This document shows, one piece after another, positions 39,535-46,042 of a stretch of DNA of 64,000 nucleotides (the first letter of the stretch is position 1; the number at the start of each line of letters is the position of its first letter). The translations under genes and the position numbers were made by a program. Below the pieces are notes generated by a model, which saw only the letters and a list, made by a program, of their open reading frames with translations, made no database searches and was not told the origin of the DNA. Source of the DNA: Bacteroidia bacterium (GTDB taxonomy: Bacteria > Bacteroidota > Bacteroidia > UKL13-3); the NCBI GenBank assembly GCA_025454975.1, contig JALONK010000001.1, forward strand, positions 62,001 to 126,000, read 5' to 3'.

Positions 39535-40014
39535 TTAATGATGATGGCCACCCGGACCATGTACATGCCCATGCGCCAGTTCTTCTGCTGTTGCCTCTCT
39601 TACTTCCAATACTTCTACATCAAAGTTTAATTCTTTTCCGGCTAAAGGATGATTACCATCTACAGTTACCATGTCGTTATTAATCTCAGTAACAGTAACA
39701 ATAAATCTTTGTTCATCCGAACCGGCTTCAAATTGCATACCTACAGTAACTTCTTGGCCACCGAATGCGCTCATAGGAACTTGTTGAACCATTTCTGAAA
39801 CATAAGCACCATACCCATTTTCCGGACTAACTTTTATTTGAAACTTATCTCCGGTAGATTTTCCTTCTAGTCCGTTTTCCATGCCGGGAATAAGGGCTCC
39901 AATACCTTGAATGTAGTTTAATGGTCCACGTCCATTGCTGGTATCTAATACAACTCCTGAATTATCAGTTAGGGTGTAATTAATAGATACCACTTTGTTT
40001 GCTGATACTTGCAT
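39535..40014 (-). CDS. slyD: FKBP-type peptidyl-prolyl isomerase, SlyD-like
   Basis: A 159-residue cytoplasmic prolyl isomerase and chaperone. The FKBP strand VVSINYTLTDNSGVVLDTS, the GALIPGMENGLEGKSTGDK core and the insert-in-flap domain (about 70-125) are visible. The tail HGHVHGPGGHHH is His-rich, like the metal-binding tail of E. coli SlyD that helps nickel handling. Confidence 0.93.
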   Translation of the reverse strand: MQVSANKVVSINYTLTDNSGVVLDTSNGRGPLNYIQGIGALIPGMENGLEGKSTGDKFQIKVSPENGYGAYVSEMVQQVPMSAFGGQEVTVGMQFEAGSDEQRFIVTVTEINNDMVTVDGNHPLAGKELNFDVEVLEVREATAEELAHGHVHGPGGHHH

Positions 40015-40152: not shown

Positions 40153-41397
40153 TTAATGAATGCTTTCAACGGCCGGTAACTTATTTTTTATTGGAATTTT
40201 CACCCCTGAATTTATTTGAATTGGCGTTTCTTCTATTTCGGCAACAAAAGCACCTTTACCCTGATTTAACTTTGCTTGTATTAATTGTTTTATAGTTATG
40301 TATCCAATTGCATAACGATAAGCATTTCCATCATATCGGGCTAAAATTTGATGGAAATGAAAGGCCTCAAATTGTTCATCAGTTGCATATCGTACATAAA
40401 TCTTTAATAAGTGGTCATTATTAATAAAGTTTACAGGTTTCAGTTGTTGTTTAAGGTATGGATATCGGTATTGATTACTTAAGGCAAAAATATCAGCAAG
40501 TACCGCCGCAGCCGTCGGAAATCCTCCGGCTCCTTTTCCTTTTAATAACTGATTGTCATTAAAACTTCCATTAATTTCTACCGCATTAAATTCTTCATGG
40601 ATATTGTAAAGGGGGTGTTGTTCACCAATAAATTTTGGCAATACATAAGCAGCAATTCCTTTATCGGTTTGATAGGCTTGAGCAATTAACTTTATGGTTT
40701 GCTTCTTTTCTTTAGCAAATTGAATATCAAATAAAGTTAATTGAGTGATTCCAAAGTTTAATACGTCTTCCGGTTTTACTACAACACCAAATGCATGAGC
40801 AAGCAATAATATAAGTTTAAATGTTGGATCGAATGCTTCAATATCCATAGTTGGATTACTTTCGGCAAACCCTTTAAGTTGAGCCTCTTTTAAAGCAGTT
40901 TCAAAAGTTTTCGCTTCTTTAAAACATTGTGTTAAGATATAATTGGTAGTACCATTTAAGATACCATTGATGTGTGTAATTGTGTCAATGTTATAATACT
41001 CCTCTATACTTCTAATAATTGGAATAGAGCCGGCCACAGCGGCTTCATAAAGCACGGGTAAATTATATTTTTTCTGAAGCAATAAAATTTCTTCTAAATG
41101 ATTAGCCAACATTTTTTTATTGGCACTAATAACAGGTTTTCCATTTTGCAATGCAACGGTTAAGATTTTAAATGCTCCATCGGCATCATCAATCAACTCA
41201 ATTACCAAGTTAATTTCACGGTCGTTAAGAATTTCTTCTTTGTCATAAGCAAATAATTCATGGTTAATGTCTCGTGGTTTGAGTTTGTTTTTTACTACAA
41301 TTTTTTTGATGGTAGCATTAAGTTGCGGTGTTTGTTGCAACGCCTTATATAAGCCTCTGCCCACGCATCCATATCCAAAAAGTCCTATTTGTATCAT
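40153..41397 (-). CDS. hom: Homoserine dehydrogenase
   Basis: A 414-residue enzyme that reduces aspartate semialdehyde to homoserine. The NAD(P) motif GLFGYGCVGRGLY is at residues 5-17; the catalytic region carries SANKKMLA (Lys), AAVAGSIPIIRSIEEYY and GILNGTTNYILTQ; GAGGFPTAAAVLAD follows near residue 300. A C-terminal part of about 85 residues could be an ACT-like regulatory domain. It is the last gene of the metY-metX-thioesterase-hom operon and supplies the substrate of MetX. Confidence 0.93.
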   Translation of the reverse strand: MIQIGLFGYGCVGRGLYKALQQTPQLNATIKKIVVKNKLKPRDINHELFAYDKEEILNDREINLVIELIDDADGAFKILTVALQNGKPVISANKKMLANHLEEILLLQKKYNLPVLYEAAVAGSIPIIRSIEEYYNIDTITHINGILNGTTNYILTQCFKEAKTFETALKEAQLKGFAESNPTMDIEAFDPTFKLILLLAHAFGVVVKPEDVLNFGITQLTLFDIQFAKEKKQTIKLIAQAYQTDKGIAAYVLPKFIGEQHPLYNIHEEFNAVEINGSFNDNQLLKGKGAGGFPTAAAVLADIFALSNQYRYPYLKQQLKPVNFINNDHLLKIYVRYATDEQFEAFHFHQILARYDGNAYRYAIGYITIKQLIQAKLNQGKGAFVAEIEETPIQINSGVKIPIKNKLPAVESIH

Positions 41398-41404
41398 AAA
41401 TATT

Positions 41405-41816
41405 TTAGTTTAAGTGTTGAGTTGAAGGTGTAATTAAAATGCATTGGTGTGCTTTAGGTTTGCCTTTTCTAAGGGCAACAAAAGTGAAGTATGCTTCACA
41501 TATCATTGATGTTTCACCAATTGGAGTTTCTTTATAAACCAATACTTTTATTTTGATTGATGTTCGACCCAAATCAGTAATGGTAGCATTTAATTCAATG
41601 ATGTCGCCTAAATGAGCCGGTGCTTTAAAATCAACTCGTTCTAAACATGCTGTAACGGCTCCGTCACATTTGGTACCATATAAAATTCTTCTACAAGCCC
41701 TAGCTGCAACCAAATCCATTTCTGCTAATATTTTTCCGCCAAACAAATTTCCTGTATGGTTTAAATCTTCAGGGAAGATGAAAAATGAATGAGTGGTTAC
41801 AAAAGGAGTGATGATT

Positions 41817-41833
<17 letters not shown>
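41405..41833 (-). CDS. Acyl-CoA thioesterase, hotdog fold
   Basis: A 142-residue single-hotdog thioesterase of the YciA/ACOT type. The signature LNHTGNLFGGKILAEMD (residues 24-40) carries the conserved Asn, Gly pair and Asp. Its start overlaps the end of metX by 17 nt, and hom follows 7 nt after its stop, so it is co-translated inside the methionine operon. The role there is unclear; it might act on acyl-CoA linked to the acetyl-CoA-using MetX step, but this is a guess. Confidence 0.88.
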
Positions 41834-44188
<2,355 letters not shown>

Positions 44189-44225: not shown

Positions 44226-44293
44226 AACAGTGGAAGAAACTGTATGAAAAATTTTATTGATGAGGGTACTTTCTTCCTGAAAGTTTACACCCC
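44226..44293 (-). promoter_or_regulatory. Two hairpins with alternative pairing in the met leader
   Basis: On the minus-strand RNA, hairpin 1 pairs ACUUUC with GAAAGU (44284-44279 and 44273-44268) and is extended by GGGU/ACCC; it contains the stop codon of leader peptide B. Hairpin 2 pairs ACAGU with ACUGU (44243-44227). An 8-nt segment of hairpin 1 (GGAAGAAA, 44277-44270) is fully complementary to the loop of hairpin 2 (UUUCUUCC, 44239-44232), so both cannot form with the long pairing. Such exclusive pairings are typical of attenuators. A run of five T follows hairpin 1 after 12 nt. Confidence 0.55.
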
Positions 44294-44353
44294 GAAATGA
44301 TGATGATGTTGCCCGTGTGAGCAACACATATACATGCACATGGTGCAGCACAT
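44285..44353 (-). CDS. Met/Cys-rich leader peptide B of the metYX operon
   Basis: A 22-codon frame: MCCTMCMYMCC followed by SHGQHHHHFGV and TAA. It contains four Met, five Cys and five His. The stop lies 108 nt before metY and inside a hairpin. The core MCCTMCM recurs in leader peptide A 155 nt upstream, with TGC and ACC codons here instead of TGT and ACT. Leader peptides rich in the regulated amino acid are the sensing device of ribosome-mediated attenuation. A Cys/His/Met metal-binding peptide is the alternative reading. Confidence 0.6.
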   Translation of the reverse strand: MCCTMCMYMCCSHGQHHHHFGV

Positions 44354-44362
44354 ACAACTGTT

Positions 44363-44389
44363 GTTAACGGTTGATAGAACCGAGTTAAC
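44363..44389 (-). promoter_or_regulatory. Hairpin just upstream of leader peptide B
   Basis: GTTAA-CGGTT (44363-44372) pairs with AACCG and TTAAC (44378-44382, 44385-44389) with a 2-nt bulge and 5-nt loop. It lies 10 nt before the leader B start codon, so it could affect its translation. Confidence 0.45.
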
Positions 44390-44507
44390 TAAGTTTGAAC
44401 AGATGACAGCAGGTGCTTTTGTCATTTTTGAGTTGTATGATTTTTTAATTTATTTGATTGATGTCTTTTATTGGATTTGCGAAAAGACTACGCAAAGAAA
44501 TGTGGTG

Positions 44508-44582
44508 TTAACACATACACATAGTACAACACATATGCATTCGATGCATTTCGCTATGATGATATATTTTGTGTTGTTGCAT
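44508..44582 (-). CDS. Met/Cys-rich leader peptide A of the metYX operon
   Basis: A 24-codon frame: MQQHKIYHHSE followed by MHRMHMCCTMCMC and TAA. The last eight residues are all Met or Cys except one Thr. A 6-bp hairpin (TTTGCG/CGCAAA, 44476-44496) follows the stop closely. The shared core with peptide B and their order on the same strand, upstream of metY, support a real leader. A plus-strand frame over the same bases (44334-44588) is its shadow. Confidence 0.55.
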   Translation of the reverse strand: MQQHKIYHHSEMHRMHMCCTMCMC

Positions 44583-44602: not shown

Positions 44603-44629
44603 AAAATGTAATCTATTTTTGTTGTGCAA
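44603..44629 (-). promoter_or_regulatory. Candidate promoter of the met leader
   Basis: TTG (44629-44627), 16 nt and TACATTTT (44610-44603; one mismatch to TAnnTTTG) on the minus strand. Transcription would begin near 44596, 14 nt before leader peptide A. Confidence 0.35.
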
Positions 44630-44837: not shown

Positions 44838-45806
44838 TTAGTTGCTTAGGTGTTGTAAGAAATCGGATACGTGTTTGGTCCATTCGGTTTGGTGATGTTG
44901 CAAATAGTTTACATGTCCGGCATTTTTATAAATATGAAGTTTTTTTTCACACCTAAGTTTTTTGAAAATATCCATAATTTCTTGCTTACTCACCGTTTCG
45001 TCTTTTGCGCCGTGCATCAATAAGGTAGGGCACTTTATAGAGGATGCATATGATATTGGATTATGATTAAATGCCCAAAATCCATTAATTGCACCACCCC
45101 AAAAAACAAGAAATCCTGCAGCCGGAAACACGGGTAAATTCATATTTCTAAAACGTGCACTCACGGTTTGGTACATTGTTCCAAAAGGACATTCTAATAT
45201 GATACCATCAGGTTGAATTTTATAATCATGAATGGCTTTCATAATAGCAACTGCACCCATAGATGTGCCGAATAAATAAATATTTCCCTTCTTCTTTTGT
45301 GCGATGACATCAAAACATTTTTTTACTTGTTCAGCTTCTTTAAAGCCTATGGTGGTTTGATTACCACCGGAGCCACCGGAGCCCATAAAATCAACCAACA
45401 TCACATGGTATCCAAGGCGAATAAAAATATTTGCTCTATCCAACATTTTCGACTTATCACCACTGTATCCATGAAATCAGATGATTGTTCCTTTGCTATA
45501 TTTAGTTTTCAAAAGCCAACACTCAATGTCAACATCATGGTGGAGTGTTATGGTTTCAAATGGTTGAGTTGGTTTTCGCGAATGTTTAGGTCGTGGATTA
45601 TTAACGCCAAGTATAATTGTAGTTAATTTTTCAGTGAATGATAATTGATTTGGAGATTTGGTTTTATTGTTGATTTTATTGTTAAAGTGTGTGAATTTAT
45701 AAGCATGAATCAAAAAAATGATTTGTAATAAAACACCTAAAACTAAAAATAACCATAAGCACTTTTTTATTACGTTTTTAGTAGATGTCATAATAGGTTT
45801 AATCAT
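44838..45806 (-). pseudogene. Alpha/beta-hydrolase interrupted by an in-frame TGA
   Basis: One continuous frame of 322 codons, open except for a TGA at 45479-45477 (codon 110). The N-terminus has a membrane anchor (residues 15-35). The peptide around the stop reads GTII-stop-FHGYSGDKSKMLDRA, where a Leu is expected before the FHG oxyanion segment; TTA to TGA is one base. Downstream the nucleophile FGTSMGA, the Asp in GAKDETV and the His in NAGHVNY are intact. TGA is a normal stop elsewhere here (metY), so recoding is unlikely. A recent mutation or a sequence error fits best. Confidence 0.85.
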
Positions 45807-45910: not shown

Positions 45911-46042
45911 AAGTGAGGTTCCGGCTTAGGGACAGCAGTGAAAAGCCCGGAGCGAGGCACGAGCGAGGACTTGTAACGAATGGCCCGACCCGAGCGCAAC
46001 TGGTGGGCTTTGTGCAGGAGGGTGAAGTGAAGGGGAAGCCCC
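45911..46042. other. GC-rich intergenic island
   Basis: About 130 bp clearly richer in G and C than all neighbouring DNA. It contains a short near-repeat (GAGCGAGGCAC then GAGCGAGGAC at 45951-45970), an inverted pair AAAGCCC (45942-45948) and GGGCTTT (46005-46011), and GGGGAAGCCCC near 46032. Both strands have open frames of about 70 codons, but they show no domain and look like by-products of base composition. It could be a dispersed repeat or a structured RNA. Confidence 0.5.

Follow-up and report, generated by a model that had tools for sequence, protein, structure and literature searches.

How does a Bacteroidia bacterium decide when to make methionine? The question is raised by the window, the 64,000-nucleotide stretch of DNA analysed here, in which the region upstream of metY carries two Met/Cys-rich short ORFs and the gene order is metY-metX-(thioesterase)-hom. 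The operon lies on the minus strand and comprises metY, encoding an O-acetylhomoserine sulfhydrylase (42851-44176; TIGR01326, 665.9 bits against a cut-off of 495.1), a metX-like homoserine O-acetyltransferase gene (41817-42854; TIGR01392, 334 bits, under the cut-off of 500), a gene for a 4HBT-family thioesterase (41405-41833; PF03061), and hom, encoding homoserine dehydrogenase (40153-41397; NF004976, 316 bits, cut-off 205). Together, metY, metX and hom account for the conversion of aspartate semialdehyde to homoserine and then to homocysteine, one step short of methionine. Directly 3' of the operon lies a gene for an FKBP/SlyD-like protein with a His-rich tail (HGHVHGPGGHHH; 39535-40014, minus strand).

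Both Met/Cys-rich frames reported by the first-pass annotation are present on the minus strand upstream of metY. ORF1 (44508-44582) encodes MQQHKIYHHSEMHRMHMCCTMCMC and ends in a stop codon; Met/Cys-rich ORFs align with it in relatives. The second frame, first read as 44353-44285 on the minus strand (MCCTMCMYMCCSHGQHHHHFGV, then a stop), stands as a frame, and its start does not. Because an in-frame GTG sits at roughly the corresponding position in relatives, the start is most likely ATG 44425, so that ORF2 (44285-44425, minus strand) would encode 46 amino acids, MTKAPAVICSNLVNSVLSTVNNSCMCCTMCMYMCCSHGQHHHHFGV, ending in CMCCTMCMYMCCSHGQHHHHFGV before the stop. Just 5' of ORF1, a promoter-like site of the Bacteroidota type (TTG ... 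TACATTTT; 44603-44629, minus strand) is predicted by eye from the window sequence and its alignment; the strict TAnnTTTG promoter motif has no match in the window. The locus has what leader-peptide attenuation calls for at its start: a short ORF near the putative promoter, in which codons for the amino acid made by the pathway are clustered. Farther upstream are an alpha/beta-hydrolase-like gene (44838-45806, minus strand), which an in-frame TGA at 45477-45479 appears to interrupt, and an intergenic element of about 63-70 nt (45925-45995) with 13 copies in the genome.

The seven-codon cores of ORF1 and ORF2 differ, as had been claimed, at third positions only, in four places (TGT/TGC three times, ACT/ACC once). 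In the whole 3.4-Mb genome, an exact match to the pattern TGYTGYNNNATGTGYATG is found nowhere but in these two ORFs, and no comparable leader was found at a second Cys/Met-metabolism gene there. The heptapeptide MCCTMCM common to both ORFs is specific to the window, its exact string being absent from relatives. What relatives share is Met/Cys-richness together with the motifs MHxM...MCC in ORF1 and CC..MMRMCCS in ORF2, so that duplication is not a necessary explanation of the repeat.

Chance ORFs in AT-rich intergenic DNA would be the simplest explanation, and one that the counts leave with practically no probability. When the 450-nt upstream region was dinucleotide-shuffled 20,000 times, no shuffle gave even one ORF in which seven of eight residues are Met or Cys, the window's score. 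Of 112 different Bacteroidota sequences upstream of metY, 52 contain an ORF with at least six Met or Cys residues in eight, against zero in shuffles and zero on the reverse strand; at five in eight, the figures are 62 regions against 0.2 (shuffles) and 2 (reverse strand). With such conservation across the phylum, chance is already refuted. Cysteine codons in the leaders are mixed (TGT 270, TGC 178; both used in 63 of 73 leaders), a mixture that points to selection acting on the peptide or its codons and away from a simple DNA repeat.

Conservation extends to the tandem itself. A close metY is found in only 9 of 64 family genomes (an order-level search covered the same 64), and the same tandem occurs in six family relatives besides the window: loci L003, L004, L005, L007, L008 and L010. 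There ORF1 ends at about -290 to -350 and ORF2 at about -95 to -155 from metY, and in L003, L004, L005 and L008 the ORFs align with the window's leaders. Tandem leaders also appear in L138 and L140, from another family, and in L131, whose second leader was missed by the threshold and seen by eye. Of the two remaining family members with a close metY, L009 has no leader, and neither do several other Bacteroidota metY genes; in L006, metY does not open its operon, and a thioesterase gene similar to the window's 4HBT gene lies directly and closely ahead of it. The tandem Met/Cys leader peptides proposed for this methionine operon are thus kept in relatives, where Met/Cys-rich frames recur in metY upstream regions. 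This clearly contradicts the refuting condition set by the first-pass annotation, namely that relatives would lack such frames. Judged from sequence, leader-peptide control of the metY operon is very likely.

A metal-sensing role through the His stretches had also been left open, and the Cys, His and Met content of the ORFs, with HHHH in the window, could suggest that they encode functional metal-binding peptides. However, the leaders of relatives keep neither the HHHH run nor most of the other His residues, so metal sensing through them finds no support. Peptide lengths and non-core parts vary as well, the ORFs have no Pfam or NCBIfam match, their position before metY is fixed, and terminators are tied to the codon run. 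Functional metal-binding peptides are accordingly a highly improbable explanation.

These terminators provide the structural evidence for attenuation. A strong intrinsic terminator follows each of both leaders in L007, L010, L131, L138 and L140, and an equally strong class of terminator follows the single leader of L048 and of L067; for L138, the second of the two was identified by eye in the sequence and is included in the antiterminator scoring. In these relatives an antiterminator strand starts 0-11 nt after the last core codon and pairs with the 5' half of the terminator. Scored against dinucleotide shuffles, the 12 leader-terminator pairs give a combined p of 1.8e-8, with six of the 12 below 0.05 on their own. 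This layout of leader, terminator and competing strand is the one expected of ribosome-mediated attenuation, which is therefore structurally supported in the relatives.

The window's own subgroup is built differently. On its operon strand the window shows no recognisable intrinsic terminator, and none directly follows the leaders of L003, L004, L005 and L008; weaker terminator-like hairpins occur near metY in L004 and L005. Trp-like attenuation, backed by terminators and antiterminators in relatives, is thus a candidate mechanism for the window itself. What the five sequences have in common is two hairpins. P1 (GUUGCUC-ACAC-GGGCAAC; 44308-44325, minus strand) overlaps the final Cys codons of ORF2; in all five it is paired, with one-sided changes only. 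P2 (44263-44293, minus strand) lies around or just after the ORF2 stop codon, which in the window sits in its internal loop. Five of its six inner pairs show compensatory changes on both sides among the five sequences, and its outer stem pairs in every one despite differing sequences. The P2 loop is AGGAA in the window and AGGA(A/U) or UGGAA across the set. A further pairing, between UUUCUUCC downstream (44232-44239) and the loop and 3' arm of P2, is possible in the window and not in all five species, and was rejected for that reason.

The position of P2 suggests how it could read the ribosome. With a 12-nt footprint assumed, a ribosome at the stop codon is predicted to cover the 5' arm of P2 in all five sequences, and one stalled in the core to leave P2 free; P2 is the likely candidate for the antiterminating structure of the subgroup. 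In L004 a long alternative stem can be built with the 3' arm of P2 and runs into a U tract some 24 nt ahead of metY, which fits P2 as an antiterminator; the window shows no terminator of this kind. In all five species the sequence after P2 holds more C than G, which fits Rho loading and is a weak indication that makes Rho a candidate terminating factor here.

Alternatively, the window's version may act on translation, leader stalling altering access to the metY start codon as at mycobacterial polycysteine uORFs (Canestrari 2020, as cited in PMC13236596). That precedent and the window's want of an intrinsic terminator speak for it. A Cys/Met run is present in the window ORFs. The predicted openness of the metY start is nearly equal between ribosome positions in all five species, which speaks against control of metY translation and led to the rejection of start occlusion; relatives, moreover, have transcription terminators. 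Translational control is thus unlikely, though less so than the other rivals.

Could P1 and P2 instead form a small metabolite-binding riboswitch, with the ORFs secondary? The covarying structure and the conserved AGGA(A/U) loop are compatible with one. Against it, there is little conservation outside the loop beyond the coding constraint on P1, the structure is confined to five genomes, and other lineages retain leaders without P1/P2, all of which makes a riboswitch very unlikely. A P1/P2 model, R1, gave strong matches within the order only in the five input genomes, with weak ones elsewhere, and P1/P2 was rejected as a wider RNA family since strong matches are so confined. No Rfam RNA, including the SAM-I riboswitch and the T-box, reaches its gathering score in the window; the sole lax match, a eukaryotic snoRNA on the other strand (E 4.3), was rejected as a known family.

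Control of the metY-metX-hom operon by two ribosome-sensing leader peptides in series is therefore the probable explanation. A ribosome would translate each leader. A shortage of Met- or Cys-charged tRNA would make it stall in the run of Met/Cys codons, leaving the RNA just 3' free to form the antiterminating structure, and RNA polymerase would read on. With a good supply, the ribosome would reach the stop codon and block the antiterminating structure, and transcription would end; in the window's subgroup, Rho or a non-canonical terminator may stop it. Two gates in a row should tighten control. On this evidence from sequence, ribosome stalling at Met/Cys codons most likely decides whether methionine is made. 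The model draws on the tandem's conservation in family relatives and other lineages, the 52 of 112 upstream regions with leaders against none in shuffles, the terminators after both leaders with their antiterminator strands, the match of leader codons to the pathway's product, and a covarying P2 with a 5' arm predicted to be accessible while the ribosome is stalled and masked once it sits at the stop. Against it stand the window without a recognisable intrinsic terminator, a set of antiterminators of which half are individually significant, and the leaderless metY of L009 and other genomes.

Across the phylum, metY control follows a broader pattern. At 71 scanned loci, which are most of the other Bacteroidota metY loci, a SAM-I riboswitch lies 5' of metY, and at 39 of these a leader follows it, usually ending in Cys codons. 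The leader ATG lies 8-11 nt 3' of the aptamer at 26 of the 39, a fixed spacing that suggests the aptamer may gate leader translation. L020 (2127-2375), L030 (2110-2375) and similar loci, with metY at 2501, show this order: SAM-I, a polycysteine leader starting 8-11 nt on, then metY. No convincing terminators were found downstream of the Cys leaders at riboswitch-bearing loci. L019, L020, L027, L029 and L030 share a stretch 3' of the Cys leader, CAGCAACA ... CTGCC..GTGACAGG, the first part of which is complementary to the Cys codon run; it may be a structured RNA, with no intrinsic terminator.

No SAM-I riboswitch was found at tandem loci, and five genomes searched, those of the window, G055, G050, G063 and G003 (not all of them complete), yielded none either. 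Within the family, 41 of 62 genomes have a SAM-I riboswitch above the cut-off; in those looked at more closely, no leader accompanies it, and the gene that it precedes is metH or a cystathionine-gamma-synthase-like one. The mean Met fraction is 0.52 for leaders that lack a riboswitch, against 0.17 where one is present (p = 4.5e-7). When phylogeny is taken into account, four independent pairs are left, and the informative ones point in the same direction without reaching significance (p = 0.25). Exchange of the SAM-I riboswitch for a leader peptide is thus a lead, not a result. Tentatively, and with rather less than even confidence, Bacteroidota metY control can be pictured as modular: a Cys or Met/Cys leader would be combined either with SAM-I, whose aptamer 8-11 nt before the leader start may gate its translation, or, as in the lineage of the window, with another leader that takes over methionine sensing, and in the window's subgroup a new covarying P1/P2 RNA would read ribosome position without an intrinsic terminator.

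Leader-peptide attenuation is barely described in Bacteroidota, the papers found offering general hints only (PMC9723704, PMC7366714), and the metY leaders offer a concrete, widespread and testable system. It joins Met and Cys sensing by leader, two serial gates, and an apparent SAM-I/leader exchange before the same gene, and many genome annotations would gain from it conserved short ORFs as well as a structured RNA that has so far gone unannotated. No published description of tandem Met/Cys leaders or of the SAM-I and Cys-leader combination was found in a search that left most subscription journals outside, so an earlier account is possible.

Among known systems, the trp, his, leu and ilv leaders are like the present ones in having a short promoter-proximal ORF with a codon run for the pathway's product, and their intrinsic terminator and competing antiterminator are matched in the window's relatives. 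They differ from the leaders here, which use Met and Cys codons, form two serial units and, in the window's subgroup, do without an intrinsic terminator. Closer in codon content are the Cys leader peptides of Actinobacteria, known without terminators (PMC1262725), and the polycysteine uORFs of mycobacteria (Canestrari 2020, cited in PMC13236596). Like the window's leaders, they place a Cys codon run near the stop, upstream of sulfur genes, often with no obvious terminator. Unlike them, they belong to another phylum and other genes (the cys operon, cbs) and use Cys rather than Met and Cys, and no tandem is reported in the text consulted. In Rhodobacterales, cysS is preceded by uORFC-8-2 (PMC8632094), which resembles the leaders here in its tandem Cys codons followed by an intrinsic terminator, and differs in having two Cys codons, a single unit, and another gene and phylum. 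The SAM-I (S-box) riboswitch, RF00162, lies upstream of metY in most other Bacteroidota examined, many at about the distance of ORF1; in the window, whose genome has no detected copy, a leader occupies its place.
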